Shown piece after piece: positions 3,148-39,011 of a DNA stretch of 64,000 nt. The stretch is taken from positions 7,003,001 to 7,067,000 of the forward strand of contig NZ_AP023360.1 in assembly GCF_018326265.1 (NCBI RefSeq). Direction: 5' to 3'. Made by a program: the position numbers and the translations under genes. Within the stretch, counting starts at the first letter, position 1; each line of letters begins with the position of its first letter. The notes below the pieces were generated by a model. It saw nothing but the letters and a program-made list of their open reading frames with translations, was not told the origin of the DNA and did no database searches. Origin of the DNA: Catellatospora sp. IY07-71 (GTDB lineage Bacteria > Actinomycetota > Actinomycetes > Mycobacteriales > Micromonosporaceae).

Positions 3148-4623
3148 GTAACTATTCAGGTCGGCGTGTCGGTTCCACGTTTGGGCGATCGATGGCGATG
3201 ATCGTCGGGTGTCGTCTGAGCGGGTTCCGTCGTATGAGCAGTTGGCTGCTCTGGTCGTGGAACAGGCCGCGCTGATCGAGCGGTTGACGGCGCGGGTGGC
3301 CGAGCTGGAACGTCGGCTCGGCCTCAACTCGCGTAACTCGTCGAAGCCGCCGTCGTCGGACGGGCAGGCCAAGCCGCCGCCGCGGTCGCTGCGGGAGCGT
3401 TCGGGCCGCCGTCCGGGTGGGCAGCCCGGCGCGGACGGGACGACGTTGCGGCAGGTCGCTGTGCCTGACGAGGTGGTCGAGCACCGGCCGGACGCGTGTG
3501 GGCGGTGCCGGGCGGGACTGGCGGGAGCCGCGGTGGCCTCGGTCGTGGCGCGGCAGGTCTTCGACGTGCCGCCGATCCGGGTCCGGGTGACCGAGCACCG
3601 GATGGTGGCCTGCCGGTGCTCGGGCTGCGGGGCGGTGACCGGTGCGCCGGCTCCGGCCGGGGTGGGCGCGCCGGTGCAGTACGGGCCGGGCATCGCCGCG
3701 ATCGTGGTGTACCTGGCGGTTCGTCAGCACATCCCGGTGGCGCGGCTGGCCGAGTTGTGCGCCGAGGTGCTGGGCGTGGACGTGTCGACCGGCTGGATCG
3801 CCGGTCGGCTGCGCCCGGCCGCCCGGTCGCTTTCCGGGTTCGCCGACCGGGTCCAGGCCGCGCTACGGGCCGCGCCCGTGGCCCACTTCGACGAGTCCGG
3901 GGCCAGGGTCGAGGGCCGCAACCGGTGGGTGCACTCGGCCTCGACCCCCACCCTGACCTGGTTCCACCTCGACGACAAGCGCGGCAAGGCCGCGATGGAC
4001 GCCGCAGCGATCCTGCCCGCCTTCGCCGGTGTGGCCGTGCACGACTGCTGGCCGGCCTACTTCCGCTACACCAGCCTGGAGCACGCGGTCTGCAACGCCC
4101 ACATCCTGCGGGAGCTGACCGGCTGGCACGAGACCGACCCCGACCGCCAAACCTGGGCCAAAACCACCGCCGACCTGCTACGCGAAGCACACCGGGCTGT
4201 CGTGGCCGCCCGCGCAGGCGGACACGACAGCCTCGACACCGCCCGGCTGGCCGACTACGACCGCCGCTGGGGCCAACAGATCGCCGCCGCGTACACGGTC
4301 AACCCCCGCCCCGAGCAAGGGCGCGGGGTGCGCATCGTCGCGCTCATCGACCGGCTGCGCACCGCCACCACCGAGATCTGGCGCTTCACCCGCGACTTCA
4401 CCGTCCCGTTCGACAACAACCAGGCCGAACGCGACATCCGCATGGTCAAACTCCAGATCAAGATCTCCGGGACCTGGCGCACTGTCGACGGCGCCCGCGA
4501 CTGGCTGACCATCCGCGCCTACATCTCCACCGTCGCCAAGAACGGACTCAACGTCTACCAGGCAATCCGCGACGCCCTCACGGGAAACGCCTGGCTACCG
4601 CCACTCCCCACCTGAACAGTTAC
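3148..4623 (+). mobile_element. IS66-family insertion sequence (single-ORF, ISBst12-like), complete
   Basis: A 1476-bp element with terminal inverted repeats GTAACTATTCAGGT (3148-3161) and, reverse-complemented, GTAACTGTTCAGGT (4610-4623), one mismatch in 14. GTAA ends are typical of IS66. It is flanked by the exact 8-bp duplication CGTGTCCA and carries one intact transposase. There are no tnpA/tnpB accessory ORFs, as in the ISBst12 subgroup. Both ends, the duplication and the ORF are intact, so the insertion looks recent. Confidence 0.93.
3209..4615 (+). CDS. IS66 family transposase
   Basis: 468 residues, GTG start. The N-terminus has a coiled coil (ALIERLTARVAELERRLG) followed by NSRNSSKPPSSDG, a signature of IS66 TnpC proteins, then a basic linker and a zinc-finger-like region with CGRCRAG and CRCSGCG. 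The catalytic DDE residues are in HFDESGARVEG (about residue 227), VHDCWPAYF (about 279) and NNQAERDIRMVK (Glu near 407). The TGA stop lies inside the right inverted repeat. The protein catalyses transposition of its own element; no partner ORF is present. Confidence 0.93.
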   Translation: MSSERVPSYEQLAALVVEQAALIERLTARVAELERRLGLNSRNSSKPPSSDGQAKPPPRSLRERSGRRPGGQPGADGTTLRQVAVPDEVVEHRPDACGRCRAGLAGAAVASVVARQVFDVPPIRVRVTEHRMVACRCSGCGAVTGAPAPAGVGAPVQYGPGIAAIVVYLAVRQHIPVARLAELCAEVLGVDVSTGWIAGRLRPAARSLSGFADRVQAALRAAPVAHFDESGARVEGRNRWVHSASTPTLTWFHLDDKRGKAAMDAAAILPAFAGVAVHDCWPAYFRYTSLEHAVCNAHILRELTGWHETDPDRQTWAKTTADLLREAHRAVVAARAGGHDSLDTARLADYDRRWGQQIAAAYTVNPRPEQGRGVRIVALIDRLRTATTEIWRFTRDFTVPFDNNQAERDIRMVKLQIKISGTWRTVDGARDWLTIRAYISTVAKNGLNVYQAIRDALTGNAWLPPLPT

Positions 4624-8194: not shown

Positions 8195-10330
8195 TCAGCC
8201 CTTCATCGGGGCGCCGACGGCGGGGTCGCGGTCGTTGGTGAGGAACGTGGTGGCCGGCAGGCCGCCACCGGCGGGCCGGGCCCGCTGCGCGCCCGCCGGG
8301 TCGTCCTCGACCAGGGCGTCGGTGCTCCAGCCGGACTGGTTCCAGGAGTTGCCGTCCTGCACGGCGGTCGTGGACAGCCGCGCCTCGCGGGAGTTGCCCA
8401 GCGCCAGGTTGCCGCGGAACACCGCGCCGGAGTAGAAGAACGCGAACCCGTCCTTGCCGTTGCGGTACGCGGTGTTGCTGGTCAGCCGCAGCGTGCCCCG
8501 GTTGGCGCTCTCGGTGAAGCCGTAGCCGGTGTTGTCCCAGGCGGCGCTGTTGGTGACGACGTGCGCCACGGCGGGGGCCGGGTCGCCACCGCCGAGCCGG
8601 AAGCCGTTGCCCGCGCCGGGCACCGCCTTGGCCGGGTCCCGCCAGAGGTCGACGCCGTTGCCGTACGCCCAGCTGCGGTCGATCGTCACCGGGTCGGCGA
8701 AGTCGTGCAGGTCCAGCCCGTCGTCGACGTTGCCCCAGAACCGGCACCCGCGCACGGTGTTGCCGCCGCCGGTGCCGTACCTGACCGACAGCCCGTCGGC
8801 GTCGCCGCCCGCGTCGCGGTTGCGATAGAAGTCGCCGTCCACCACCTGGTTGTGCTCGGTGCCGGCGTCGCGCAGGGTCAAGCCGGTGCCGCCGTTGTCG
8901 TGCACGGACAGCCGCTCGAACACGTTGTGCCGGCAGGCCCCGCACACATACGCGTTGCGCGGCGCGTTGCGGATCTCCAGCCCGCGTACGGTCCAGTAGT
9001 CGGCGGTCTGCGTGATGAACCAGCTGTTGGAGCGCAGGTCGGCGGCGTCGAACACCGGCCGCTCCCCCGGCGCGGCGGTCAGCGTGATCCGCTGCTGGGC
9101 GGTGCCGTCGGTCTCGATCACGACCGGGTCGACGGCCCGGTAGGTGCCGCCCCGCGCGACGATCGTCTGGCCGGGCCGCGCCACGGAGACGGCCTTGGCC
9201 AGGCTCGCGTACGGGCGCGCGGCGCTGCCGTCGCCGTCGTCGCTGCCGTCCGGTGCCAGCTGGACCTCCAGCCGCACCGCGGCGGCGGTCGCCGACGGCG
9301 CGACCGACGGGGACGCCGCCGCGCTGCTCGCCGGGACCACCGATGGTGACGGGCTGGGCGGTGCGGCCTCCACCTGCGGTGACGTCTTCCCCGGCAGCAG
9401 TACGAGGACGGCGGCGACAGCCGCGGCCGTCCCGGCTGCGGTGCCCGCGGTCAGCGCCGGCTTCGCCCACAACGGCGCCAGCAGGCGCCCCCACCACCCC
9501 GCCTGCCCTGCCGCGAGCGCCGCGGCACCCGCGCCCGGGGCGGCCGCGTTCGCCAGCGCGGCGAGCAGTTCGTCGAGCGCCCCGGCGGAGACGGGCACCA
9601 ACCCGAGTCCGCCGAGGACGGCCTCGGTCGTGACCGGCGGGCGGCTCACCGCCTGGCAGCTCGGGCATTGCTCGATGTGCCGGTGCAGCCGCTTCTGCCA
9701 GCGGGGTTCGGCGCTGCCGTCCCAGCCGCGAGCCGCCGCGACGAGATCCTCGCAGCGGGGACGGGCCCGCCACGCGGCGAGCACGGCGCGGGCACGGATG
9801 AGGTGGGCGCGCATGCGCTGGATGCGTACCCCCGCGTGGGCGACCGTCAGACCGAGGGCGTCGGCGACCTCGGCGCGGCTGAGCGAGCCCGCGATCTCCT
9901 GCCACCACAGCGCCAGGACCCGGCGTTCCTCGGCGTCGAGCCAGCGGCTCGCGGCGAGCACGACCTCGCGCTCGGCGGCCAGCCGCACCCGGGCCAGGGT
10001 GTCGTCGGCGAAGTCGGCGTCCGGGTCGGGCAGCTCCGGCACGGTGCGGGCCTGGTCGGTGCGGCGCGCGCGTTCGCGGTCCTGGATCTGGCGGACGGCG
10101 ATGGCGACCAGCCACGACCGGAAGCGTTCCGGTTCGCGCAGCGACGGCAGCGCCTGCACGGCGCGCAGCATCGTCTCCTGGACCACGTCGTCGACGTCGG
10201 GGTGGCCGTGCAGGGCCCGGCCCACGATGTTGTACACGAGCTGCAGGTGCTCGGCGAGCAGCCGGGCCACGGCCTGCCGGTCCCCGGCTCTGGCCGCGAC
10301 GACGAGCGCGGGGTCCGCGAGCGTGTTCAT
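8195..10330 (-). CDS. Fused ECF sigma factor - zinc finger - transmembrane - pectate-lyase-like protein
   Basis: 711 residues from the ATG at 10330, chosen because GGCAGGAG lies just upstream; an in-frame ATG 36 bp further out has no such site. Residues ~10-95 are sigma region 2 (HPDVDDVVQETMLRAVQALP), ~125-190 region 4, and HIEQCPSCQ (~215-225) resembles an anti-sigma HxxxCxxC finger. One hydrophobic helix (~290-313) and a Pro/Ser/Ala linker follow, then a right-handed beta-helix with DUF1565/PL9-like features (DGSAARPYASLAKAV; repeated N-rich turns). This predicts a cytoplasmic sigma/anti-sigma unit tethered to an outside pectin-acting or pectin-sensing domain. Related ECF families with fused extracytoplasmic carbohydrate domains are known; whether this lyase domain is active is uncertain. 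It is divergent from a secreted pectate lyase, its natural target. Confidence 0.85.
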   Translation of the reverse strand: MNTLADPALVVAARAGDRQAVARLLAEHLQLVYNIVGRALHGHPDVDDVVQETMLRAVQALPSLREPERFRSWLVAIAVRQIQDRERARRTDQARTVPELPDPDADFADDTLARVRLAAEREVVLAASRWLDAEERRVLALWWQEIAGSLSRAEVADALGLTVAHAGVRIQRMRAHLIRARAVLAAWRARPRCEDLVAAARGWDGSAEPRWQKRLHRHIEQCPSCQAVSRPPVTTEAVLGGLGLVPVSAGALDELLAALANAAAPGAGAAALAAGQAGWWGRLLAPLWAKPALTAGTAAGTAAAVAAVLVLLPGKTSPQVEAAPPSPSPSVVPASSAAASPSVAPSATAAAVRLEVQLAPDGSDDGDGSAARPYASLAKAVSVARPGQTIVARGGTYRAVDPVVIETDGTAQQRITLTAAPGERPVFDAADLRSNSWFITQTADYWTVRGLEIRNAPRNAYVCGACRHNVFERLSVHDNGGTGLTLRDAGTEHNQVVDGDFYRNRDAGGDADGLSVRYGTGGGNTVRGCRFWGNVDDGLDLHDFADPVTIDRSWAYGNGVDLWRDPAKAVPGAGNGFRLGGGDPAPAVAHVVTNSAAWDNTGYGFTESANRGTLRLTSNTAYRNGKDGFAFFYSGAVFRGNLALGNSREARLSTTAVQDGNSWNQSGWSTDALVEDDPAGAQRARPAGGGLPATTFLTNDRDPAVGAPMKG

Positions 10331-10636
10331 CGATGCAACTCCTGCCGCGAAACGGTCCACGAACAAGATCTATTGAGGACCGCCGCCATCGTGACACGCC
10401 TCCGATCAGGCTGTAAAGACATCGGCGACCGCCATTGCTTCGGCTGGCGTTCAAACAAACCTCGCCGATTTCTGTTACGGCGAGGTGACCGGCCCGTCTA
10501 CCAGACAGCGACCCCGGCCGTGCCCGCGGCCGGACCGTCGCTACCGCCGGACGACCGGGCCGTCCGGCACCTTCCGTCCCGCGGCGGCGGCGTCCAGGCA
10601 GCGCCGCCCCGCAACCCTGTCCCGAAAGGACCAGCG
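10331..10636. promoter_or_regulatory. Divergent regulatory region between ECF-lyase fusion and pectate lyase
   Basis: 306 bp between two divergent starts. It contains an inverted repeat CCTCGCCG/CGGCGAGG (10460-10467 and 10478-10485, 10-nt spacer) that could be an operator or leader hairpin, and the ribosome site AAAGGA (10625-10630) of the pectate lyase. Promoters for both genes must lie here; I cannot assign -35/-10 boxes with confidence. Confidence 0.45.
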
Positions 10637-16392: not shown

Positions 16393-16457
16393 ATGATCGC
16401 GAGTTCGTGTCGAAACCTATGGCCAGACCTCAGGTTTCGACACGAACTCGCGATCAT
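16393..16457. terminator. Long hairpin (26-bp perfect arms), GTGTCGAAAC family
   Basis: 16393-16418 pairs perfectly with 16432-16457 around a 13-nt loop. It lies at a convergent junction between the propeller-like gene and the Dabb gene. Related hairpins occur at 25416-25482 and, split by the IS, at 3126-4676. No T-tract follows, so it may be a repeat element that also stops transcription. Confidence 0.75.
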
Positions 16458-16518: not shown

Positions 16519-16800
16519 TCAGGTGGTGTAGTCGACGACGACGCGGGCGGCGAGGCGGGGGCGGAGCCACTGGGCGATCTCCAGGTGGGCCGGGTGCTTC
16601 TGGTATCCGGCCAGGCCCTCGGCGTCGGCGTGGGTGCTGACCATGCACAGGTGCGCCGAGACGGGAGTGTGCAGCTCATCGAGGTGCACACGCAAGCTGA
16701 GAATCTCCGGAACGTCACCGACCAGGCCTTCCAAAAGATCCTTAGCCTTGGCAGCATCGGCTGCGTCGGTGAACGTCATCAGCACTACGTGAGAAAGCAT
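16519..16800 (-). CDS. Dabb (stress-responsive A/B barrel) family protein
   Basis: 93 residues, the standard size of the dimeric alpha/beta-barrel Dabb family. MLSHVVLMTFTDAADAAKAK, HLCMVSTHADAEGLAGYQKHPAHLEI and the C-terminal VVVDYTT are typical, including the conserved HP before the last helix. Family members include olivetolic acid cyclase and stress proteins. It is divergent from the tetrapyrrole-like operon across 90 bp that hold a shared motif and a good -10 for this gene, so it may be a co-regulated ligand-binding or cyclase-like partner. Confidence 0.88.
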   Translation of the reverse strand: MLSHVVLMTFTDAADAAKAKDLLEGLVGDVPEILSLRVHLDELHTPVSAHLCMVSTHADAEGLAGYQKHPAHLEIAQWLRPRLAARVVVDYTT

Positions 16801-16890: not shown

Positions 16891-18597
16891 ATGGCTCCAG
16901 TACGGGTCGCCGCGGTGCAGCTCGCCGCGTCGCAGGATGTCGACGGCAACCTCGCCGCGTGCCTGCGTCTCATCGACGACGCCGCCGCACAGGGCGCACA
17001 GCTCATCGTGCTGCCTGAATTCTGCAACCACTTGTCCTACTACGCCGACCGGGCACAGGCGCACCAGATCGCGACCAGGCCCGGGGACCCGTTCCTGACC
17101 GCGGTCGCCGACCGCGCCCGCAGGCACGGCGTACACATAAAGATCAACGTGACCCACGCGCACCCGGACGGGCGCACCGGCGGGACGAACTTCCTGTTCG
17201 GCCCGGACGGCGCGGTGCTCGGCCAGTGCGACAAGCAGACCCTGATGGGCGCCGAGAACGACCATCTCGACCCGGCCACCGAGGTCGGCCCGGTCATCGA
17301 GACGCCGCTCGGCCGCCTCGGCATGTACGCCTGCATGGAGGGCGTCATCAACGAGGTCGCCCGCGGTCTCGCGCTGCGCGGCGCGCAGGTGCTGCTGAAC
17401 AGCCTGAACTCGTTCGCGCTGGACGAGGCGAGCCTGCACATCCCGGTCCGCGCGGCCGAGAACAAGGTGTGGGTCGTCGCCGCGAACAAGGTCGGGCCGC
17501 TGCTGCCGGAGGAGCACCTGCCCCGGCTCAGCGCCGCCCTCGGCGTACCGGCGGAGTGGCTGCACGGCGCCGGCGAGAGCCAGATCGTCGCCCCCGACGG
17601 GACGGTGCTGGCCAAGGGGCCCCGCACCGGCGAGGCGGTGGTCATCGCCGACATCGACCCCGACCTGGCCGACGGCAAGCACCGCCCCGACGGCACCGAC
17701 ATCTTCGCCACCCGCCGCCCCGAGCTCTACACCGAGATCGCCGAGCCCCCGCACGGCCGCCGCCGCCCGCCGGGCGCGGACAACATCCAGGTCGCGGTGG
17801 TACGCGGCGACGCCGCCACCGCCGAGCGCGAGACCGCCCTGGCCGCCGCCTCCGGTGCCGACCTCGTCGTCATCCACGACGGAGATCCGGCCAGGCTGGC
17901 CGCGGCGCTCGACGGAACGCGCGCCCATGCCGTGGTCGGCACGCCGGCGGGGCCGGTGCTCATCGACGCCAATGGCGTCGTGGCACGCCAGCCCGCGTTG
18001 CACGGTGCGGCGGCAGACCACTCCGCCACGGCCGACAACTTCTGGGATGTAGCTACATCCCAGAAGTTGTCGGCCGCGCAGGAGACCGGTGCCCGCGGCA
18101 CCGCACCTGAGCCCGGCACGCAGGCCGCAACGGATCCCGCGACCGAGGCAGCCGCGCTGGTCACGGTCGACCTGGCCTGGGGGCGGCTGGCGATGATGGC
18201 CGGCGGCGACTCGATCTACCCGGAGCTGTTCCGGGTCGCGGCGCTGCGGGACGTCGACGTGGTCGCCGTGACCGTGGAGACCGCGGAGACCTGGGAGCTC
18301 GCCCTCGGGCTGCCGGAGCGGGCGGCGGAGAACCGGCTCAACGTGGTCGCGGCTACGCCGGTGCATCAGGAGGCGGCGGTGTTCGCGCTGTCGCCCGACT
18401 TCACGCTGTGGACCGCGTGGCAGGGGCCGTTCACCGGGCGGATCAGCCACCCGGTGGTCACGGCCGTGCCGGCGGGCCAGGCCGCGGGGCGCGCGGACGT
18501 CGCCCCCGCCCAGGCCGCCAACCGGCTGGTCTCCCGCCAGACCGATCTCGTCGACGGCCGCCCGTGGCGGCTGGTGCACGCCCTCATAGAAAGGTAG
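16891..18597 (+). CDS. Nitrilase-family hydrolase, tandem domains, with in-frame repeat insertion
   Basis: 568 residues, about twice a normal nitrilase. The first domain (1-285) has the complete triad: Glu43 in LPEFCNH, Lys115 in CDKQT and Cys148 in MYACMEG. It should hydrolyse a C-N bond in an amide, nitrile or carbamoyl group. The second domain (~300-568) keeps the fold (GRLAMMAGGDSIYPELFRVA; LPERAAENRLNVVAATP) but has Gly in place of the Cys, so it is probably non-catalytic. In its middle, residues ~370-420 are low-complexity and include DNFWDVATSQKLS (382-394), encoded by the palindrome 18029-18076. It is the first gene of the nine-gene operon and starts 10 bp after the shared operator. 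Confidence 0.85.
   Translation: MAPVRVAAVQLAASQDVDGNLAACLRLIDDAAAQGAQLIVLPEFCNHLSYYADRAQAHQIATRPGDPFLTAVADRARRHGVHIKINVTHAHPDGRTGGTNFLFGPDGAVLGQCDKQTLMGAENDHLDPATEVGPVIETPLGRLGMYACMEGVINEVARGLALRGAQVLLNSLNSFALDEASLHIPVRAAENKVWVVAANKVGPLLPEEHLPRLSAALGVPAEWLHGAGESQIVAPDGTVLAKGPRTGEAVVIADIDPDLADGKHRPDGTDIFATRRPELYTEIAEPPHGRRRPPGADNIQVAVVRGDAATAERETALAAASGADLVVIHDGDPARLAAALDGTRAHAVVGTPAGPVLIDANGVVARQPALHGAAADHSATADNFWDVATSQKLSAAQETGARGTAPEPGTQAATDPATEAAALVTVDLAWGRLAMMAGGDSIYPELFRVAALRDVDVVAVTVETAETWELALGLPERAAENRLNVVAATPVHQEAAVFALSPDFTLWTAWQGPFTGRISHPVVTAVPAGQAAGRADVAPAQAANRLVSRQTDLVDGRPWRLVHALIER
18029..18076. repeat. Palindromic element, family 1, copy B (in frame in nitrilase-like CDS)
   Basis: A perfect 48-bp palindrome centred between 18052 and 18053 (centre TAGCTA). 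It is the longest of the four copies and is extended outward by CGGCC/GGCCG. It reads in frame as DNFWDVATSQKLS. Confidence 0.9.
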
Positions 18598-18603
18598 GCC
18601 ACG

Positions 18604-19407
18604 GTGGCCGAAACGCTCCGGCACGTCGAGGACATGGTCGACAACTCGCCCGTCATCGACGTCCACGACACCTTCCACCAGTATCAGCAGCTGCTCGCCG
18701 AGCTGAAGGCGAAGATCGACGCCCGGTTCGAGCTGCACCGCGACGAGTCGACCCTGGAGCTGGAGTCGTACGGGCAGTACCCGGACGGCCCCGGCGGCTC
18801 GCTGGCCGCGTACAGCGGGCCGGAGGTGGACTGGATGGTGCACTCCTGGCTCGGCAACCCGGGCGCGAGCTTCGCCAACCTGCACCTGACCGTGTGGCTC
18901 GGGCCGCAGGTCAAGGTGCCGCACCTGGGCCTGGCCCTGCTGGTGTGGCCCGAGGGCTGGTTCTACCTCGACTCGGTGCCGCGGGTGAACATGGTCGAGG
19001 ACGGCGAGTACTACGACCGCTACTACGCCCCGCTGGACGAGGAGTGGCTGGCGCGCCGCGCCGACCCGGAATTCGAGTACTTCGTCAGCCGGGCCGGGTT
19101 CATCCGGGCCAGCCTGAGCCCGACGGCGTACTGCTACTCGTTCAAGCGCAGCACCCGGAACCTCGACATCGTCCGGGAGCTGACGCACGCGCACGTGGAC
19201 CGGTGGCTGCGCTGGGTCGACGAGGCCGAGCCGGTGCCGGTCGAGGAGCGCGCCGCGCTGGCCGAGACGGACCTGCGGATCCGGCGCAACATCGCCGACC
19301 GCGACCCCGCCAACGTGATGGGCGTGCGCTTCTTCGGCCAGGAGACCACCGACAAGCTGGTCCGCGGCCTGTGGGGCGGGGACCGGAAGTCGGAGCCGCC
19401 GCGATGA
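18604..19407 (+). CDS. Red chlorophyll catabolite reductase-like protein, paralogue 1
   Basis: 267 residues. The core VPHLGLALLVWPEGWFYLDS, VPRVNMVEDGEYYDRYY, then AGFIRASLSPTAYCYSF, HAHVDRWLRWV, ETDLRIRRNIADRDP and FFGQETTDKLVRGLWG follows the order of motifs I recall in plant RCC reductase (ACD2): APNFVVELI, LDLPHRKDLVLNPDYLKEYY, RSAFSPTAS, HV..VLEVWLE, RRDKSFRR, MFGEEVSSRVV. RCC reductase belongs to the ferredoxin-dependent bilin reductase fold and reduces an open tetrapyrrole without a flavin. I infer a bilin-type reductase; the electron donor is not in the window. A second, diverged copy lies at 21570-22292. The start is an in-frame GTG at 18604, 6 bp after the nitrilase stop. Confidence 0.7.
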   Translation: MAETLRHVEDMVDNSPVIDVHDTFHQYQQLLAELKAKIDARFELHRDESTLELESYGQYPDGPGGSLAAYSGPEVDWMVHSWLGNPGASFANLHLTVWLGPQVKVPHLGLALLVWPEGWFYLDSVPRVNMVEDGEYYDRYYAPLDEEWLARRADPEFEYFVSRAGFIRASLSPTAYCYSFKRSTRNLDIVRELTHAHVDRWLRWVDEAEPVPVEERAALAETDLRIRRNIADRDPANVMGVRFFGQETTDKLVRGLWGGDRKSEPPR

Positions 19408-20372
19408 GCACGATCCGTTCGGTGTGGTGGGCGGCCACCATGCCCGGCCACGAGCCGCCGTTCGACACCGCCCACCTGCGCGTCTACTACCCGGCCGTGC
19501 CGGACGGCTCGGATCGCGAGCGGCTGTCGGGGGTGATGGCGGCGGACACGTCCGGCGCGCCGTACCCGGTGGCGCTGATCGTGTCCGGGGTGAACGTGGG
19601 CCAGGAGGCGTACCGCTGGCTGGCCTGCGCGCTGGCCGAGCGGGGCATCGTCGCGGTGACCTACGACTGGGTGGGCACGCTGTTCGGGGGGCTGCACGGG
19701 ATCACGCCGGGCGTGGACCTGGACGCGGCCAAGCCGGACGGGTACGGCACCCGGCCGACCTGCCCGTCGCTGCGGCCGGTGCTGGACGCGCTGGCCACGA
19801 TGACCGGGCCGGTGGCGGGGCTGCTGGACCTGGACCGGGTGGCGCTGATCGGCCACTCGGCGGGCGGCACGGTGGCGCTGCAGTCGGCGCGCTTCCTGCC
19901 GGAGATCAAGGCGGTCGCGACGTACGGCGCGCACACCATGGTCGCCACGATGCTGGGCTGGCCGGCGGGCACGGTGCTGCCGGCCCAGGCCGACTGCCCG
20001 GTGCTGCTGGTCGCGGGCGAGAACGACGGCGTGATCAACGGCTCGGCGGACCGCTACGGCGAGGACGCGGCGACCCGGCGGGACCCGATCACGCGCACGT
20101 TCGACGAGGCGCTGCCCGACCGGGACGGCGCGAACCTGCTGGTGCGGCTCGCGGGGGCGAACCACTTCGGGATCGTGCACCCGGTCGACCACACGGCGGC
20201 GCGGGCGTTCCTGGACCTGCCCGCCGAGGGGGATCCGGCCGAGCACCGCGCGCTGCTGGCGGATCTGGTCGGCGCGTTCTGCCGTACGCACCTGCGCGGC
20301 GGCCCGGACGCGCAGGCTGAGCTGGACAAACTTATCGAAAATCCCGGCGTCGCCGCGGTCCGGCGGAGGTAG
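19404..20372 (+). CDS. Alpha/beta hydrolase, chlorophyllase/dienelactone-hydrolase-like
   Basis: 322 residues from the ATG at 19404, overlapping the previous TGA. PYPVALIVSGVNVGQEAYRW, LAERGIVAVTYDWVG and the nucleophile elbow LIGHSAGGTVAL fit the chlorophyllase/PET-hydrolase branch, where the motif is GHSxGG. Asp in VAGENDGVI and His in AGANHFGIVHP complete the triad. In context it may cleave the phytyl or methyl ester of a tetrapyrrole, but hydrolysis of another ester is equally possible from sequence alone. It is followed after 4 bp by the Rieske oxygenase. Confidence 0.75.
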   Translation: MSTIRSVWWAATMPGHEPPFDTAHLRVYYPAVPDGSDRERLSGVMAADTSGAPYPVALIVSGVNVGQEAYRWLACALAERGIVAVTYDWVGTLFGGLHGITPGVDLDAAKPDGYGTRPTCPSLRPVLDALATMTGPVAGLLDLDRVALIGHSAGGTVALQSARFLPEIKAVATYGAHTMVATMLGWPAGTVLPAQADCPVLLVAGENDGVINGSADRYGEDAATRRDPITRTFDEALPDRDGANLLVRLAGANHFGIVHPVDHTAARAFLDLPAEGDPAEHRALLADLVGAFCRTHLRGGPDAQAELDKLIENPGVAAVRRR

Positions 20373-20376
20373 AGCC

Positions 20377-21573
20377 ATGTTGAAGAACTTCTGGTACGCG
20401 GTCGAGTTCGCCGACCGGGTGACCACCAAACCCGCCCGGGTCACCGTGCTCGGCCAGCACCTCGCCCTCTACCGCACGCCGAAGGGGCGCCCGGTGGCGC
20501 TGTCGGACCTGTGCGTGCACCGCGGCGCGGCGCTGTCGGGCGGCTGGACCAAGGACGGCTGCATCGTGTGCCCGTACCACGGCTGGGAGTACGACGCCGA
20601 CGGCCAGTGCACGAAGATCCCGGCGAACCTGCCGGGCCGGGGCATCCCGAAGAAGGCCCGCGTCGACTCGTACCCGGTGCAGGAGAAGTACGGCTTCGTC
20701 TGGGTGTTCATGGGCGATCTGCCCGAGGAGGAGCGCCCGCCGCTGCCGGTGTGGCCGGAGTTCGACGACCTGAAGGAGAACGGCGGCCGCTTCCGGGCGG
20801 TGACCGGCGAGTTCCTGTGGAAGGCGAACTACGAGCGCATCCTGGAGAACGGCTGCGACATCGCGCACGCGCCGTTCGTGCACGCGGGCGCGTTCGGCAA
20901 CCCGGAGCGCCCGGAGGTCGCCGAGTACGAGCTGGAGACGCCGGACGAGTGGTCGGCGTTCGCGACGGTGGACCTCTACCCGCCGCGGCCGCGGGGCATC
21001 TGGGCGGCGCTGAACCGCAACAAGGCCGACCTGGCCAATCGGCCGCCGGTGCGCACCTCGGCCGGCTGGATGCTGCCGAACATGATCAAGCTGCACGTGC
21101 GGCTGCCGATCGGCGAGCTGATCATCTACGACACGAACATCCCGATCGACGAGACGACCACGCTGGTCAAGTGGGTGGCGCTGCGCACCTTCTTCACCGG
21201 CAAGTGGGCCGACAAGAACGCGATCAACCGTACCCTCAAGATCTTCTACGAGGACGCGGAGGTCGTGAACAAGGTCCGGCCCGAGCTGCTGCCCTTCGAC
21301 CTGGGCGCGGAGCTGCACATCAAGAGCGACCTGATCGCCGTGCACTACCGGCGCCGCCGCCAGGAGCTGGCCGAGAAGGGCTGGCTGCTGTCCGAGGAGG
21401 ACAGCATCACCGGTGACGTGCCGCGCCGCACCGCGACCGTGATCGCCTCCCCGGCCCGCCGGGAGAACCCCGAACTGGCCCGCGCGTGGGTGCACAAGGC
21501 CCGCGGCGAGCACCCCACCGTCCAGGCCGCCTGGGACGCCGCCCAGGCCGCCGAGTCCGAGGAGAAGCCGTGA
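20377..21573 (+). CDS. Rieske non-heme iron oxygenase
   Basis: 398 residues. The Rieske cluster ligands are Cys46-x-His48 (CVHRGAALSGG) and Cys65-x2-His68 (CPYHGW). The mononuclear iron site is Asp161, His164 and His169 in NGCDIAHAPFVH. This matches the single-component terminal oxygenase group that includes vanillate demethylase, TIC55 and phaeophorbide a oxygenase. I see no C-terminal CxxC as in plant PAO, so PAO function is an inference from the neighbours. It needs an external ferredoxin/reductase, not encoded here. Its stop overlaps the GTG start of the next gene. Confidence 0.9.
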   Translation: MLKNFWYAVEFADRVTTKPARVTVLGQHLALYRTPKGRPVALSDLCVHRGAALSGGWTKDGCIVCPYHGWEYDADGQCTKIPANLPGRGIPKKARVDSYPVQEKYGFVWVFMGDLPEEERPPLPVWPEFDDLKENGGRFRAVTGEFLWKANYERILENGCDIAHAPFVHAGAFGNPERPEVAEYELETPDEWSAFATVDLYPPRPRGIWAALNRNKADLANRPPVRTSAGWMLPNMIKLHVRLPIGELIIYDTNIPIDETTTLVKWVALRTFFTGKWADKNAINRTLKIFYEDAEVVNKVRPELLPFDLGAELHIKSDLIAVHYRRRRQELAEKGWLLSEEDSITGDVPRRTATVIASPARRENPELARAWVHKARGEHPTVQAAWDAAQAAESEEKP

Positions 21574-22292
21574 GCCTGCCCGCCGACCTGTGCGAGCGCA
21601 CCCTGAACCGCATCCTCGCCGCCCACCCCGACCTGGTCGAGCAGGAGACGCCGCTGGCGTCGCTGACCAGCCCGATGTCGCCCGCGCCGGTCGGCTCGGT
21701 GCGCGTCTTCAGGGGCTCGGCCGTGGCGAAGGTGGTGTACGTCGGCCTGGTCGTCCCGATGATCCAGCTCGACAGCCACATGATCTTCGCGTTCACCCCG
21801 GAGGACTCGGCCGTCCCGCACTTCACCCTGGACTCGGTGTACGGCGGCGCGTACCACGCGTTCCACCTGGACCTGATCCCGCGCGCCGACCTGGCCTCGC
21901 ACCTGCCCTACCTGGACGCGGCGTTCCACCCGCTGAGCCCGGTGTTCGAGTCGGCGGCGGGCATCGAGGGCCTGACGCCGGCCGCGATCGGGCCCCGGCA
22001 GCGCGCCATCATGTCGCCGTGGATGCTGGTCAACCGGGCGTCGGAGGAGGCGTTCGCGGCGATCACCGAGCACGTCGACGCGTACGCCGCGCACTGGTCG
22101 GGGCTGGTCGACAAGGGCCTGCCCGACGACGTGCTGGCCGGGCTCGCCGACACCGACCTGGCCGCCCGGGACGCCGCGGTGCGCGCGAACATCTTCAGCC
22201 GCGACGTCGACCCGGTCTGGGCGCAGGTGTCCCGCCTGCTCGGCGACGAGAAGACCGACGCCATCCGCGCCGAGCTGGTGGCCAATGGCTGA
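21570..22292 (+). CDS. Red chlorophyll catabolite reductase-like protein, paralogue 2
   Basis: 240 residues from the GTG at 21570. It shares the order of motifs with the gene at 18604: VPHFTLDSVYGGAYHAFHLD, LIPRADLASHLPYLDAAF, a SPW segment, HVDAYAAHWSGLVDKGL, LADTDLAARDAAVRANIFSR and a C-terminal LLGDEKTDAI. PHF..D and LDLIPRADL are closest to RCC reductase. Two diverged copies in one operon suggest a heterodimer or two successive reductions, as when a bilin is reduced in two steps. It overlaps the upstream Rieske gene (GTGA) and the downstream gene by 8 bp. Confidence 0.7.
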   Translation: MSLPADLCERTLNRILAAHPDLVEQETPLASLTSPMSPAPVGSVRVFRGSAVAKVVYVGLVVPMIQLDSHMIFAFTPEDSAVPHFTLDSVYGGAYHAFHLDLIPRADLASHLPYLDAAFHPLSPVFESAAGIEGLTPAAIGPRQRAIMSPWMLVNRASEEAFAAITEHVDAYAAHWSGLVDKGLPDDVLAGLADTDLAARDAAVRANIFSRDVDPVWAQVSRLLGDEKTDAIRAELVANG

Positions 22293-23235
22293 GCCCAGCG
22301 AGTGGCAGAAGCGCATCACCGGGGAGTGGCACGGCCGGCCGTCGCTGTTCGACGCCACCGGCACGTGGTGCGGGTACGAGGACATCCGCCGCTCCTCGGT
22401 GTTCGAGAACGGCGTCACCACGTACTACATGGACGGCGGGCTGACCGGGGGCGGGCCGCTGGCCGGGCAGTTCCGGCTCGGCGCGCCGTTCGCATTCGGG
22501 GTCAAGGACGCCGACGACAACCGCGTCTACACCGGACCGGACTTCTACGGCACCGGGCAGCCCTACGGCTCGTTCGTGGACTCGCACTACTACGGGCCGG
22601 GCTGGCAGGTGGACCTGAACACCTGGAACCAGATCCTGCCCGACGGCCAGACGCAGGTGTACTCGTCCGTGCTCTACCAGGGCTGGTCCGTGGTGGGCTG
22701 CTTCAACGGCGTCTACACGCGTTCGCACGACCACGACGAGAACCCCGAGACACAGGCCAGGGTCGCCGACTTCCTGGCGGCCGAGACCCGCCGCGGGCCC
22801 GTCCCGCACATCATGCCCACCAAGCAGGCCGGGGCGTATGCGGGCAGCGTCGAACTCTGGGGCGCCGACCAGAAACTGCGCGGCACGGTCGACATCCGGC
22901 TCGCCCTCGAACCGGTCGACCTGCTGCACACCCGCCGCACCGTCACCTGGTCGGGCGCGCTGAACCGCACCGCCACCGCCGTGGCCCGGCGCGACGGCAA
23001 CCGGCTGTTCCACGAGGGCCCCGAGGTGTGGGGCAACGCGATCGCGTTCGGCCGGGCCGCGTTCGGGTCGCTGCACTTCACCGACGTGGTGAAGGTGAAG
23101 ACCCGCGAGGTCCTCATAGACGCCGAGCCGGGCATGTCGGCCGGTAGGCAGCTGGCCGTCGTGTACGAGCTGTTCGACGGCAACGTGCTCGACGGCGTCA
23201 TGCACGGCCTGCTGGAGTGGGAGGACGCGGCATGA
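22285..23235 (+). CDS. Uncharacterised beta-rich (calycin/DUF3598-like) protein
   Basis: 316 residues, no signal peptide or membrane helix. The opening EWQKRITGEWHGRPSLFDAT and repeated Trp/Tyr-rich strands (YGPGWQVDLNTWNQILPDG, SVLYQGWSVVGCFNGVYTR, TRRTVTWSGALNRTATAV) suggest a lipocalin-like barrel, weakly reminiscent of DUF3598 proteins. If so, it could bind a tetrapyrrole intermediate; this is speculation from fold and context. Its start overlaps the preceding stop by 8 bp and its stop overlaps the SDR start (ATGA). Confidence 0.5.
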   Translation: MAEPSEWQKRITGEWHGRPSLFDATGTWCGYEDIRRSSVFENGVTTYYMDGGLTGGGPLAGQFRLGAPFAFGVKDADDNRVYTGPDFYGTGQPYGSFVDSHYYGPGWQVDLNTWNQILPDGQTQVYSSVLYQGWSVVGCFNGVYTRSHDHDENPETQARVADFLAAETRRGPVPHIMPTKQAGAYAGSVELWGADQKLRGTVDIRLALEPVDLLHTRRTVTWSGALNRTATAVARRDGNRLFHEGPEVWGNAIAFGRAAFGSLHFTDVVKVKTREVLIDAEPGMSAGRQLAVVYELFDGNVLDGVMHGLLEWEDAA

Positions 23236-24005
23236 GCAAGGTGGTCGTCGTAACGGGCGGCACCAGGGGCATCGGCCTCGGGCTGGTGCGGGAGCTGGTC
23301 GCGCGCGGCGCGCAGGTCGTCTACTGCGGACGGTCGGTCGACTCGGTCAAGCGCGCGGGCGAGCAGGTGCCGCAGGCGTACGGCGTCGTCGCCGACGTCA
23401 CCGACCGCGACGCGGTGCGCAACCTCTGGGACGCGGCCGTCGAGAAGCACGGGCGCGTCGACGTCTGGATCAACAACGCGGGCATGTCCCCCGCCCGCCA
23501 CAAGCTGTGGGAGCTGCCGCCCGGTGAGCTGGACGCCACCGTGGACCTGAACCTGCGCGGGCTGCTGCACGCGAGCGCGGTGGTGCTGGCCGGGATGACC
23601 GCCCAGGGCCACGGCGCGCTGTGGAACATGGAGGGCTTCGGCTCCAACGGCATGATCCGGCCCGGCCTGACCGTGTACGGCGCCACCAAGCGCGCCGTCA
23701 CGTACACCACGGACAGCCTGGCCAAGGAGGTGGCGGGCACCGGCGTGACCGTGCACCACCTGTCTCCCGGCATGGTCGTCACCGATCTGCTGACGCACGA
23801 CTACACGCCGGAGGAGCTGGCCCAGGCGAAGAAGATCTTCAACATCCTGGCCGACCGGGTCGAGACCGTCACGCCGTGGCTGGCGGACAAGGTGCTGGCC
23901 GGGGCCTCCAACGGGGCCCGGGTGGCGTGGCTGACCCGGGGCAAGGCGTTCTGGCGGTTCATGACCGCGTTCCGTAAGCGAGACGTGTTCGGGGAGAACG
24001 AGTGA
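23232..24005 (+). CDS. SDR oxidoreductase resembling chlorophyll b reductase (NYC1/NOL)
   Basis: 257 residues from the ATG at 23232. TGGTRGIG (8-15) binds NAD(P)H, and Tyr149/Lys153 (VYGATKRA) are catalytic. Beyond generic SDR motifs it has VDVWINNAG, LWNMEGFGSNG, LSPGMVVTDLL and KKIFNILADRVETVTPWLADKV. Plant NYC1/NOL, as I recall them, carry INIWINNAG, FNMDGAGSGG, ASPGMVLTELL and KQMFNIICELPETVARTLVP at the same places. NYC1/NOL reduce the 7-formyl group of chlorophyll(ide) b. Here it could reduce a tetrapyrrole formyl or keto group. This is the strongest single link of the operon to tetrapyrrole catabolism. Confidence 0.75.
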   Translation: MSKVVVVTGGTRGIGLGLVRELVARGAQVVYCGRSVDSVKRAGEQVPQAYGVVADVTDRDAVRNLWDAAVEKHGRVDVWINNAGMSPARHKLWELPPGELDATVDLNLRGLLHASAVVLAGMTAQGHGALWNMEGFGSNGMIRPGLTVYGATKRAVTYTTDSLAKEVAGTGVTVHHLSPGMVVTDLLTHDYTPEELAQAKKIFNILADRVETVTPWLADKVLAGASNGARVAWLTRGKAFWRFMTAFRKRDVFGENE

Positions 24006-24667
24006 ACGTCAACGACTACCCGGTGATCATGGCGCTGGAGGACTACGTCCCGACGCTGCTGGCGCTGGCCGGGTTCTGGGTGCTGGGCGGCGCGTCCCAG
24101 CGGATCGACCCGCTCGCGGCCATGCTCGGCCGGGCCGGGGCCGTGCTCATCGGCCTGGGCGGCGTCGCCAAGTCGACGTGGAAGCTGGTGCTGTCCGCGT
24201 TCGGCCACGACTGGCCGTGGCTGGAGCAGTCCCTGTTCCCGCTGATGGCGACCGGTGCGCTGCTGGTGCTGTGGTCGCTGACCACCACGCTGCGCGGCAA
24301 GGTCACCCCGTGGTGGCCGTACGCGCTGATCGGGGTGGCCGTCGCCGGAGCCGCAGTCGGCACGGGCAGCCTGCAGCCGGCGTTCATCACCGCGACCGCG
24401 GGCGTGACGCTGATCAGCGTGCTCGGCGCGGTGCTGGCCGGACGCCACCGGGCCTGGCTCGCGGTGGCGCTGTTCGTGCTCGGCATCGTCGCGGTCACCT
24501 CGCTGGTGCCGCTGCGCAGCCACCCGGAGCACCACACGGTCGCCTTCCAGTGGATGGAGCAGGGCATCAACACCGTGGCGCAGGCGATCTTCCTGGTCGC
24601 GGCGCTGCTGACCGTACGCGCGGCCCGCACCGCCGCCGCGCCCGCGCCGAGGGAGGCGCTGGCATGA
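24002..24667 (+). CDS. Integral membrane protein
   Basis: 221 residues, GTG start overlapping the SDR stop. About six hydrophobic helices are visible (TLLALAGFWVLGG, AGAVLIGLGGV, SLFPLMATGALLVLWSL, ALIGVAVAGAAVG, LAVALFVLGIVAVTSLV, AIFLVAALLTV). No family is recognised. As part of the operon it may move a substrate or product or house a step at the membrane. Its stop overlaps the next ATG. Confidence 0.65.
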   Translation: MNVNDYPVIMALEDYVPTLLALAGFWVLGGASQRIDPLAAMLGRAGAVLIGLGGVAKSTWKLVLSAFGHDWPWLEQSLFPLMATGALLVLWSLTTTLRGKVTPWWPYALIGVAVAGAAVGTGSLQPAFITATAGVTLISVLGAVLAGRHRAWLAVALFVLGIVAVTSLVPLRSHPEHHTVAFQWMEQGINTVAQAIFLVAALLTVRAARTAAAPAPREALA

Positions 24668-25407
24668 CCGACGCGCTCGGCTGGCGGCGCAAGTTCGGCG
24701 TCATCGCCCCGTCCACGAACACGATCGTCGAGCCGGACTTCTACTCGATGACGGTGCCGGGCGTGACCGCGCACTTCTCCCGCATCCACATCCGCAACCA
24801 GGACCTCTCCGACGACGCGAACTTCGAGCACCTGCTGGTGCAGATCCGCGACGAGATCGGCGCAGCCTGCGAGCGGGTGCTGACCTGCGAGCCCGACTAC
24901 ATGGTCATGGGCATGTCGGCGGAGACGTTCTGGGGCGGGGTCGAGGGCAACCGCGAGTTCGTACGCCAGATCAAGGCCATCACCGGCCTGGAGGTGGCCA
25001 CGGGCGCCGAGGCGTGCGAGCGCGCGCTGAAGCTGTACGGGGCGCGCCGTATCGGCGTGGTCACCCCGTATCAGCCGGTCGGCGACCAGAACGTGGTCAA
25101 GTTCTTCTCCGAGATCGGGTTCGAGGTCACCGCGATCGAGGGCCTCAAGTGCCCGACGGCGGTGGCGATCGCGCACGTCACCGAGGACGAGCTGCGGGAC
25201 GCGATCCGCAAGGTCGACGGCCCGGACGTGGACGCGATCGTGCAGTGCGGCACGAACCTGTCCATGGTCCGCCTGGCCGACGAGGCCGAGCGCTGGCTCG
25301 GCAAGCCCGTCATCGCCATCAACGCCGCCACCTGGTGGATGGCCCTGCGCGACAACGGCATCACCGACAAGGTGTACGGAGCGGGCTCCCTCCTCCGGGA
25401 GCACTGA
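24664..25407 (+). CDS. Maleate isomerase / arylmalonate decarboxylase-like (Asp/Glu racemase superfamily)
   Basis: 247 residues. The start GVIAPSTNTIVEPDFY and the segments GVEGNREFVRQI, ARRIGVVTPYQPVGDQNVV and DAIVQCGTNLSMV are typical of maleate cis-trans isomerases. The second active-site Cys is present (Cys195), but the first is Ser85 (MGMSAETFW), so the protein may resemble one-Cys arylmalonate decarboxylases rather than two-Cys isomerases. Maleimides are classic tetrapyrrole breakdown products; together with the nitrilase-type hydrolase this could open and process such a ring. It is the last gene of the operon, followed by a long hairpin. Confidence 0.75.
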   Translation: MTDALGWRRKFGVIAPSTNTIVEPDFYSMTVPGVTAHFSRIHIRNQDLSDDANFEHLLVQIRDEIGAACERVLTCEPDYMVMGMSAETFWGGVEGNREFVRQIKAITGLEVATGAEACERALKLYGARRIGVVTPYQPVGDQNVVKFFSEIGFEVTAIEGLKCPTAVAIAHVTEDELRDAIRKVDGPDVDAIVQCGTNLSMVRLADEAERWLGKPVIAINAATWWMALRDNGITDKVYGAGSLLREH

Positions 25408-25415
25408 CCCCGAGA

Positions 25416-25482
25416 GTTGATCGCGAGTTCGTGTCGAAACCTGTGGCTGGACCGCATGTTCTGACACGACTCGCGATCAACC
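25416..25482. terminator. Long imperfect hairpin, GTGTCGAAAC family
   Basis: The left arm begins at GTTGATCGCGAGTTCGTGTC and the right arm ends CTCGCGATCAAC at 25482; the arms pair with one single-base deletion and a few mismatches. It closes the nine-gene operon and contains the stop codon of the convergent gene. Same core as 16393-16457. Confidence 0.7.
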
Positions 25483-37619: not shown

Positions 37620-39011
37620 TCAGGCAGCAGCGTCGGCCGTCGAGCCTTCGCTCAGGGCCGCCGCGGCGTCGGCGTCGTAGGTGCGCCAGGCGGCCAGCAC
37701 CACCAGGCTGCCGATCACCAGGGGCGCGATGACGACGGCGTACGCCCAGCGCAGCGAACCCGTCGCGTCCGACGCCTCGCCGATCAGCCACGGACCCAGC
37801 GCACCGCCCAGGGTGATCAGGCCCTGCAGCACCGCGAACCCGAGTCCGCGCCGGGCGGCGGGCACCACGTCGGCGTTGGCCGCGGTCAGGTTGGCGATCG
37901 CGCCCGCGAAGCCGACGTTGGCCAGCCCGAAGCACACCACCTGCGGCACGAACGGCCCGATCGACACCGCTCCGGCCAGCGCCGCCGTGCCCGCCAGCAG
38001 CGACCAGCCGCCGAACGCCACCCGCCAGCCGGCCCGCCTCCCGTGCCGGCGGTCGCCGAGCCAGCTGCCCACGCCGATGCCCGCAAGGATGCCGACCAGG
38101 CCCGCGCCCCCGCCGACGGCCGCCGCGGCGGCCTCGTCCAGGCCGTACTCCCGCTGGTAGAACGACGGCATCCAGAAGAACAGGCCGCCCAGCCCGAAGA
38201 ACAGGATGCTCAGCCCGATCACGACCGAGCGCAGCGTGCTGATCCGCCACAGCTCCCGCACCTGCGCGGTGATCGACGCCTGCACGGGCGCGGTCTGGGG
38301 CACGGCAGCAGAAGTCGAGGCGGCCGCCTCCGTGCCCGCGTACCAGGTGCTGAGCCGGTCGCCGATGCCGCGCACCGGCTCGCGCACAGTCAGCATCAGC
38401 GCCGCGATGATCGCGCCGGGCACAGCGATGAGGAAGAAGCCGGTACGCCAGCCCACGGCCTCGGCCAGCGCGCCGCCCGCGATGACGCCGATGGGCAGCC
38501 CGGCGAAGTACGCGGCGCGCTCCAGGCCGTACGCGCGGGCGCGGCTCGGGCCCGGGTAGAGGTCGCCGAGCAGGCTGGACGCGGGCGGGTTGTACAGCTG
38601 CCCGGCCGCACCGAGCAGCACCCGCACCCCGAACAGCACGGCGTACGACCCGGCCAGGCCGGTGCCGACGGTGAGCAGCGCCCAGACGGCGACGACGGCG
38701 GAGACGGTCCAGGTGCGCCGCCCGGTGTCGGCCAGCCGCCCGGCGGGCAGCAGCAGAAGCACGGCGGCGATGGCGCCCGCGGTGGCGATCGCGCCGGCCG
38801 CGCCGTCGTCGAAGCCGAACTCGCGCTGGATGGCGGGCAGCGCCCCGGCGAGCAGGTTGTACTCGATCCGGTCGACGAGCGCGACCAGCGCGATGGCCAG
38901 CGCGGGCCACCACCCGAACGGCGCGGCCCGGCCGCGGCGCACCCGCACCGGCGGCCGTCCCTCGTACGCGGTGATCTCGCGGGTCTCCTCGCTGACGGTA
39001 TCGACCGCCAT
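37620..39011 (-). CDS. MFS transporter (spinster-like)
   Basis: 463 residues with 12 predicted helices. LVDRIEYNLLAGALPAIQREF, GRLADTGRRTWTVSA (the MFS loop 2-3 motif) and LGAAGQLYNPPASSLLGDLYP resemble spinster-like members that carry lipids, bile-acid-like or aromatic acids. The region upstream (39038-39077) holds the same 28-bp motif and spaced -10 as the Dabb/tetrapyrrole operon promoter, so it is a candidate importer or exporter for that pathway. The substrate is unknown. Confidence 0.85.
   Translation of the reverse strand: MAVDTVSEETREITAYEGRPPVRVRRGRAAPFGWWPALAIALVALVDRIEYNLLAGALPAIQREFGFDDGAAGAIATAGAIAAVLLLLPAGRLADTGRRTWTVSAVVAVWALLTVGTGLAGSYAVLFGVRVLLGAAGQLYNPPASSLLGDLYPGPSRARAYGLERAAYFAGLPIGVIAGGALAEAVGWRTGFFLIAVPGAIIAALMLTVREPVRGIGDRLSTWYAGTEAAASTSAAVPQTAPVQASITAQVRELWRISTLRSVVIGLSILFFGLGGLFFWMPSFYQREYGLDEAAAAAVGGGAGLVGILAGIGVGSWLGDRRHGRRAGWRVAFGGWSLLAGTAALAGAVSIGPFVPQVVCFGLANVGFAGAIANLTAANADVVPAARRGLGFAVLQGLITLGGALGPWLIGEASDATGSLRWAYAVVIAPLVIGSLVVLAAWRTYDADAAAALSEGSTADAAA

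Follow-up and report, generated by a model that had tools for sequence, protein, structure and literature searches.

A conserved nine-gene actinobacterial operon pairing two RCC-reductase-like proteins with a Rieske oxygenase, a candidate system for tetrapyrrole catabolism

A 64,000-nucleotide stretch of the Catellatospora sp. IY07-71 genome (positions 7,003,001 to 7,067,000 of contig NZ_AP023360.1, which is 8.6 Mb long; hereafter the window, numbered from its first letter) carries a compact operon in which two relatives of the plant enzyme red chlorophyll catabolite reductase (RCCR) are encoded together with a Rieske oxygenase. Nine plus-strand open reading frames (ORFs) fill positions 16891 to 25407, each opening with a start codon and ending in its single stop, and the GC content at third codon positions is high in all nine (0.93 to 0.99). 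The eight junctions, from gene 1 to gene 9, measure 6, −4, 4, −4, −8, −4, −4, and −4 nt. The nine-gene operon is real, and its coordinates and junctions (−8 to +6 nt) bear out the overlapping and nearly touching genes of an initial annotation, which had read the locus as a bacterial version of plant chlorophyll breakdown. We propose that it is probably the core operon of an actinobacterial tetrapyrrole catabolism, acting most likely on a linear (bilin-type) tetrapyrrole derived from chlorophyll or heme.

The argument begins with genes 2 and 5. The product of gene 2 (RCCR1; 18604 to 19407, plus strand) matches the RCC_reductase family of Pfam (PF06405) at 6.6e-13, with 48.9 bits against a cut-off of 24.9, and stays below the cut-off of the bilin reductase family Fe_bilin_red (PF05996; 21.6 bits against 31). 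In a phmmer search its E-values are 1.2e-6 for plant RCCR and 2.1e-5 for the bilin reductase GtPEBB; with a profile built from 14 RCCR1 proteins they fall to 1.3e-15 for plant RCCR (profile positions 28 to 257) and to 1.3e-7 for a bilin reductase. Judged by these matches, RCCR1 is a true RCC-reductase-superfamily protein. Gene 5 (RCCR2; 21570 to 22292, plus strand) is placed by family profiles, alignments, and hhalign. The window protein reaches 12.4 bits against PF06405 (cut-off 24.9), 21 of 25 members of its family match that model at E ≤ 1 (best 3.4e-6), the RCCR2 family profile finds plant RCCR at 0.0042, and hhalign aligns RCCR2 with RCCR1 at 1.7e-12 over 214 columns. The pair is 26% identical, and by these comparisons RCCR2 is a divergent paralog of RCCR1. 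The earlier assignment of both proteins to the superfamily of RCCR and the ferredoxin-dependent bilin reductases (FDBR) was thus upheld, and naming gene 2 an RCC reductase agrees with Pfam; the same name for gene 5 was right in kind only. The superfamily is tied to tetrapyrroles (PMC13193486, PMC10151467), and RCCR and coproporphyrinogen oxidase, the two other families of this fold, bind them (PMC13193486).

The operon is widely conserved. We screened 201 genomes, the source genome and 200 relatives, with PF06405; 20 matched, the source genome counted, and the gene order, looked for in other actinomycetes, was found intact with all nine genes in each of the 19 other positive relatives. An even phylum-wide sample gave 3 positives among 396 genomes, namely the source genome and two new ones; follow-up samples gave 4 of 296 in the class of one new genome (those two included) and 4 of 33 in the family of the other (itself included). 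Scanning named genomes turned up 124 relatives, and the best 80 were analyzed as loci; hosts among these best 80 include Catellatospora, Actinoplanes, Micromonospora, Dactylosporangium, Actinomadura, Streptosporangium, Nonomuraea, Nocardia, Streptomyces, Yinghuangia, and others. Because many of the 80 share a genus, they are not independent. To these 80 we added the window and eight loci of other actinobacterial families, giving a set of 89 loci in which genes were sought by tblastn at E ≤ 1e-5. RCCR1, which was the query, is present in all 89, the Rieske gene in 87, RCCR2 in 86, gene 6 and the nitrilase gene in 84 each, the EutA-like gene in 81, the short-chain dehydrogenase (SDR) gene in 80, the hydrolase gene in 77, and the membrane protein gene in 56. 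These counts define a stable core of nitrilase, RCCR1, Rieske oxygenase, RCCR2, and gene 6. At the same threshold, the hydrolase and the membrane protein are absent from every one of the seven distant clusters; six of these lack the SDR, four the EutA-like gene, two the nitrilase, and one gene 6. The 89 include one locus with an RCCR1 match only (L100) and one without six of the nine genes (L088). They also include L055, where positions 9751 to 10518 hold a lone divergent RCCR1-like gene (31% identity) with the other eight genes absent; the L055 genome also carries the cluster (L054), and the neighbors of the lone gene look unrelated by eye. Among 72,556 plasmid records there was no RCCR1 relative at E ≤ 1e-3, and a phage collection gave two chance-level matches only (E 3).

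The catalytic positions distinguish the two reductases. GtPEBB depends on Asp-99 and Asp-219 (PMC6755814). D88 and D214 of RCCR2 occupy the columns of these residues, the register of D214 being less certain because the alignment to plant RCCR shifts it by two residues, and both are conserved in 86 of 86 sequences; with this pair kept throughout, RCCR2 looks like a competent bilin-type reductase. In RCCR1, Asp-219 aligns with D234, which is present in 89 of 89 sequences, and Asp-99 aligns with A111. Set against the acid pair that we take to be catalytic in RCCR, Glu154 and Asp291, RCCR1 by alignment keeps the second acid (D234) and has the first replaced (A111). Given an alanine in place of the acid, RCCR1 may use another proton donor or may act as a binding partner. 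In a phylogenetic tree plant RCCR joins RCCR1 (98/88) and RCCR2 stands separately (98/96). We treat this tree as weak evidence because the program flags long branches (those of plant RCCR, HY2, and L055) and a possibly false join of the bilin reductases with RCCR2.

The lost acid of RCCR1 also speaks for a different explanation, namely that the RCCR fold was recruited for a non-tetrapyrrole (for example, a natural product that contains a pyrrole, imide, or maleimide, or some other N-heterocycle) and that the cluster performs ordinary heterocycle degradation. Heterocycle catabolism often involves Rieske oxygenases, flavin monooxygenases, and amidases. A Rieske-containing lumichrome pathway, moreover, is described from Nocardioides (PMC12746152). 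We consider this explanation unlikely: the RCCR2 aspartates are kept without exception, and the families named as sharing the fold bind tetrapyrroles (PMC13193486). The terms "chlorophyll catabolite" and "nitrilase" are also absent from the main text of the lumichrome study (PMC12746152). We rejected lumichrome catabolism as the identity of the operon.

The other plant counterparts fare differently. Gene 4 (20377 to 21573, plus strand) encodes a Rieske oxygenase (PF00355, 1.6e-22) with a VanA_C C-terminal domain (PF19112, 3.9e-28); the full set of Rieske [2Fe-2S] and mononuclear-iron ligand positions is present in 86 of 87 aligned rows, the remaining row having one gap. The initial annotation had equated it with PAO, the plant ring-opening enzyme. 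The Rieske part of that call stands and the PAO part does not. We take PF08417 to be the C-terminal domain of PaO and a C-terminal CxxC motif to be a feature of PAO; gene 4 has a VanA_C domain instead and no C-terminal CxxC, its sole CxxC starting at residue 62, inside the Rieske domain. Among the solved structures closest to it in sequence are those of SxtDIOX, SxtT, NdmA, and dicamba demethylase. Gene 3 (19404 to 20372, plus strand) is an alpha/beta hydrolase that exceeds the cut-offs of the general Hydrolase_4 and DLH models and conserves S152, D208, and H254 each in 77 of 77 sequences; the name chlorophyllase proved too specific (PF07224, 14.4 bits against a cut-off of 26). Gene 7 (23232 to 24005, plus strand) is a classical SDR (PF00106, adh_short, 1e-41) with the YxxxK active site, Y149 and K153, conserved in 80 of 80. 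NCBIfam returns only generic models for it, below their cut-offs among the matches listed, with PRK07231 the best; the narrower assignment to NYC1/NOL goes too far, since no specific link was seen. The idea that homolog-like counterparts of all four plant enzymes sit in one operon is therefore unsupported, both by these assignments and by the distant clusters, six of which lack the SDR and all seven the hydrolase. With a VanA-type Rieske enzyme, a gene 3 product below cut-off, and a generic SDR, the plant parallel is, as far as sequence comparison reaches, one of homology for the reductases only; the other three are matched by enzyme class.

Of the remaining genes of the operon, gene 1 (16891 to 18597, plus strand) encodes a nitrilase-superfamily hydrolase, as first named, with two stretches matching PF00795 (CN_hydrolase, 6.4e-42). 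In its N-terminal domain E43, K115, and C148, which we take to be the nitrilase triad, are found in 82, 81, and 81 of 84 aligned rows, the rest being gaps; the second domain looks degenerate by eye. Gene 9 (24664 to 25407, plus strand) was likewise named correctly as a member of the maleate isomerase/arylmalonate decarboxylase/EutA family (PF17645, Amdase, 2.5e-21, 76.8 bits against a cut-off of 25.9; PDB 2xed, 3.4e-13). Maleate isomerase presumably has two active-site cysteines and arylmalonate decarboxylase a single C-terminal one. Gene 9 keeps C195 in 79 of 81 sequences and has M84 at the first maleate-isomerase cysteine position in 81 of 81, so it departs from the two-cysteine pattern and agrees with the decarboxylase in both its PF17645 match and its single cysteine; it lies below the cut-offs of the NCBIfam arylmal_decarb and EutA equivalogs. 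Neither gene 6 (22285 to 23235, plus strand) nor gene 8 (24002 to 24667, plus strand) has a Pfam family above its cut-off. Gene 6 encodes a conserved protein outside known families: the window protein has no Pfam match at E ≤ 1 and no NCBIfam match at E ≤ 0.01, and 18 members of its family scanned against Pfam gave nothing better than 0.03. By eye it resembles a two-barrel calycin-type protein, and our guess is that it is a candidate pigment-binding protein; its family also occurs, strongly conserved, at L042 (12378 to 13310). Gene 8 is a membrane protein by its hydrophobic segments, and a 48% identical paralog (E 1.25e-41) lies ~29.5 kb upstream, next to a chlorophyllase-like hydrolase. Adjoining gene 1, a divergent Dabb-domain gene (16519 to 16800, minus strand; PF07876, 2.9e-16) has a tblastn match in 54 of the 89 loci, is divergent and less than 800 bp from the nitrilase gene in 46, and has none in the seven distant clusters.

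A second set of genes adjoins this core. The companion operon, together with CitE, PrpD, and CaiB homologs farther upstream, is newly recognized here. Its six genes straddle the window start (window −4372 to 3116) and encode, in order, a flavin reductase with a C-terminal tail, an acyl-CoA-dehydrogenase (ACAD)-like monooxygenase, an aldehyde dehydrogenase (ALDH), a methylisocitrate-lyase-like enzyme, an FAD monooxygenase (484 to 1635, plus strand; PF01494), and a second ALDH (1632 to 3116, plus strand; PF00171, 2.1e-134). The methylisocitrate-lyase-like gene begins 577 bases before the window and ends within it (1 to 467, plus strand); its placement in the isocitrate-lyase/PEP-mutase superfamily rests on a 60-residue fragment of a relative that scores below the model's cut-off. 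The flavin-reductase tail resembles that of a protein at L085 that matches HMG-CoA lyase at 4.5e-15, and a Pfam scan of this flavin reductase does not recognize the tail. A divergent IclR regulator gene (window −5307 to −4444) lies upstream of the companion operon, and upstream of it in turn lie the gene 8 paralog (48%), a hydrolase, CitE, PrpD (49%), and a CaiB homolog (37%). The CitE, 25 kb upstream of the core operon, is the best in the source genome (48%), one of 2 matches at E ≤ 1e-5 in 8.6 Mb. The hydrolase, between CitE and the core operon, has a signal-peptide-like start by eye and exceeds the chlorophyllase cut-off (PF07224, 31.2 bits against 26), its match spanning profile positions 41 to 138 of 301 only. 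Relatives of 46 to 56% identity occur in 12 of 80 loci, and 3 more weak matches (28 to 31%) sit at the expected position of gene 3.

Companion homologs, sought by tblastn within flanks of up to 10 kb, recur around the core. In the 80 named loci we counted ALDHs in 70 and 70 (two counts that may include cross-matches between both enzymes), the FAD monooxygenase in 65, the ACAD-like monooxygenase in 49, the flavin reductase in 31, IclR in 24, and the methylisocitrate-lyase-like enzyme in 20. The respective counts in the seven distant loci are 2 and 2, 2, 1, 0, 3, and 0. Accessory counts from a GC-based gene caller are lower than those from tblastn because the caller misplaces some genes. In six of the seven genomes from other families (five of six excluding the query's genome), the best CaiB is encoded within ~12 kb of the cluster on its contig; these genomes have 2 to 6 CaiB copies each at E ≤ 1e-40. 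The best CitE lies near the cluster in five of the seven (four of six excluding the query's genome). The CitE of L042 is nearest to the itaconate-pathway lyase RipC (142 bits against a cut-off of 375), an HMG-CoA-lyase-like protein at L051 exceeds the cut-off of its subfamily (325 bits against 246), and an MmgE/PrpD protein and an isochorismatase-domain amidase are also present among the accessory genes.

These neighbors bear on whether the cluster could be biosynthetic and make a modified bilin or another pigment. Many of its hosts are actinomycetes rich in secondary metabolites, and the bilin reductases of cyanobacteria are biosynthetic. We hold this to be highly improbable: CaiB, CitE, PrpD, HMG-CoA-lyase-like, methylisocitrate-lyase-like, ALDH, and IclR proteins are mostly of catabolic type and turn up again near the core in some of the loci, and Pfam finds no synthase or transferase among the nine genes.

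Membership in the RCCR/FDBR superfamily, the co-occurrence of the Rieske gene with RCCR in 87 of 89 loci, and neighbors of catabolic type make a tetrapyrrole catabolic operon a good hypothesis, from which we infer the substrate. The gene set fits stepwise breakdown of beta-substituted pyrroles, and the steps might run as follows. Esterases would strip side-chain esters, the secreted-looking upstream hydrolase outside the cell and gene 3 inside. The VanA-type Rieske oxygenase would open or hydroxylate the tetrapyrrole, doing by convergence the job that PAO does in plants, and RCCR2, with RCCR1 as partner or second reductase, could use ferredoxin electrons to reduce the reactive open bilin at once. 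Flavin monooxygenases, the SDR, and the aldehyde dehydrogenases may then cut methine bridges and oxidize formyl groups and so yield beta-substituted pyrrole or maleimide units, whose amides the nitrilase would hydrolyze. The EutA-like enzyme might isomerize or decarboxylate the resulting substituted maleates, and the CaiB-, PrpD-, CitE-, HMG-CoA-lyase-, and methylisocitrate-lyase-like enzymes would break the branched dicarboxylates down to fragments the size of pyruvate and acyl-CoA. From their chemistry, dialkylmaleates derived from beta-substituted pyrroles would need lyases of this kind.

Several findings weigh against a tetrapyrrole catabolic operon. The RCCR2 of the window is by itself below significance against Pfam and the PDB, RCCR1 lacks the first catalytic acid (A111 in 87 of 89), and gene 4 has no match to PaO in Pfam at E ≤ 1. 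There is no ferredoxin, heme oxygenase, or importer among the nine genes, and the genome's heme oxygenase lies 6.1 Mb from the operon along the contig. The Staygreen Mg-dechelatase (PF12638) was found in none of 41 genomes (27 carrying the cluster and 14 lacking it), in a search in which no positive control matched. The upstream hydrolase also passes PAF-AH_p_II (26.6 bits against a cut-off of 20), and its relative at L109 passes PETase and not chlorophyllase (24.9 bits). Of the 80 named loci, 5 have CaiB nearby, 4 isochorismatase, 9 HMGL, 15 CitE, and 0 PrpD; these counts, like those of the companion homologs in the same loci, stand without a random-region baseline, and the CaiB, CitE, and ALDH families are generic.

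Within the tetrapyrrole hypothesis, the origin of the substrate can be weighed separately. A partial chlorophyllase match, the PAF-AH_p_II match, and the PETase-like relative make the upstream hydrolase a weak pointer to chlorophyll; with the affinity of RCCR1 for plant RCCR, it would suggest a chlorophyll origin. An origin from heme is left possible by the dechelatase search, in which neither Staygreen nor a positive control was found, and by the presence of a heme oxygenase elsewhere in the genome. The most ambitious version is complete bacterial mineralization of chlorophyll-type tetrapyrroles by a secreted esterase, convergent opening of the macrocycle by the VanA-type Rieske enzyme, a two-protein reductase, oxidation to dialkylmaleimides, and CoA/lyase cleavage of dialkylmaleates, with RCCR1 as the catalytically reduced partner in a two-protein RCCR/bilin-reductase system. 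We advance it tentatively, as possible though on the unlikely side.

A version without chlorophyll would have the cluster act on a heme-derived bilin (biliverdin or bilirubin), the cell's own or imported, with a Rieske enzyme that hydroxylates the bilin and opens no macrocycle. This is a special case of the tetrapyrrole hypothesis, and the chances of the two overlap; taken alone we find it doubtful. The genome encodes a heme oxygenase (1.6e-52), the RCCR2 aspartates stand at bilin-reductase positions, no Mg-dechelatase was found in the 41 genomes (nor did a positive control match), and a streptomycete produces biliverdin and bilirubin (PMC10060970). Set against this, the heme oxygenase is remote even if the contig is circular (2.5 Mb), RCCR1 is closer to RCCR than to the bilin reductases by score and by the tree with its long-branch warning, and the upstream hydrolase above the chlorophyllase cut-off would have no clear role.

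The operon can be set beside four known systems. The plant PAO/RCCR pathway, which yields linear phyllobilins (PMC8219035), likewise joins a Rieske oxygenase to an RCCR-superfamily reductase and includes hydrolase and SDR steps, and the tree places RCCR1 beside plant RCCR (98/88, on a long branch). The operon differs from it in having two reductases rather than one, a VanA-type Rieske enzyme without a PaO domain, CoA/lyase companion genes, and no Mg-dechelatase found (again with no positive control matched). With the FDBR family, including pre-PcyA, the operon shares the superfamily and, in RCCR2, the catalytic aspartate positions. Pre-PcyA clusters of heterotrophic bacteria typically include heme oxygenase, V4R, Fe-S, and globin genes (PMC10151467), whereas Pfam finds none of these among the nine genes. 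Sequences of Ca. Schekmanbacteria fall within the RCCR outgroup of the bilin reductases in that study, from whose main text the words Actinobacteria and Nocardia are absent (PMC10151467). Bacterial RCCR-like genes are known in Nostoc and Anabaena, and Npun_R3277 and Npun_R3279 are, as here, a closely spaced pair of bacterial RCCR-family genes (PMC2716323). Those two are highly similar and belong to a plant-symbiotic Nostoc (PMC2716323), whereas the present pair is 26% identical and lies in an operon of catabolic type. The lumichrome/riboflavin operon of Nocardioides simplex is another case of actinobacterial multistep heterocycle catabolism with a Rieske oxygenase and an end in central metabolites; it differs in its P450, thiamin-dependent decarboxylase, xanthine oxidase, and four-component Rieske system, and the available text mentions no RCCR-like protein in that pathway (PMC12746152).

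Among the matches listed from the open-access literature, we found neither a prior account of this operon nor a bacterial gene set that takes a tetrapyrrole to central metabolites. Chlorophyll breakdown is a process of global scale. If the tetrapyrrole hypothesis is correct, the operon would provide candidate genes for each stage of tetrapyrrole degradation, a bacterial setting for the RCCR family, and an example of a different Rieske branch being recruited convergently beside RCCR, in a two-operon system that is directly testable, its strains including culture-collection strains. Chlorophyll mineralization, should it hold, would account for the recycling of leaf-pigment carbon and nitrogen by soil actinobacteria, and the RCCR-Rieske pairing would exist outside plants.

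Several further features were recorded around the two operons. Promoter- and terminator-like sites do not rise clearly above chance (0 found against 0.2 expected and 3 against 1.9, respectively). An ORF at 3209 to 4615, between the companion and core operons, resembles an IS66-type transposase by eye. Upstream sequence of six of eight other Catellatospora loci holds FAD monooxygenase and ALDH homologs, one of the exceptions covering only ~3 kb upstream. At 37653 to 38927 lies a 57% homolog of a major facilitator superfamily transporter that neighbors the cluster in 7 of the 80 named loci, possibly an uptake protein. A near-perfect 38-nt palindrome occurs at 18034 to 18071 and at 216 to 253, and the genome has seven such sites at ≤3 mismatches (control, 0). 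Two of the seven lie in frame within pathway genes, in the nitrilase linker and in the methylisocitrate-lyase-like gene, where they encode NFWDV(A/G)TSQKL; in-frame palindromic elements occur in other bacteria, and the 38-nt palindrome resembles them. Another repeat brackets the operon at 16394 to 16456 and 25418 to 25469; its half-site, ATCGCGAGTTCGTGTCGAAACCT, forms an inverted pair at 16394 to 16456 and occurs 53 times in the genome at ≤2 mismatches (reversed control, 0).

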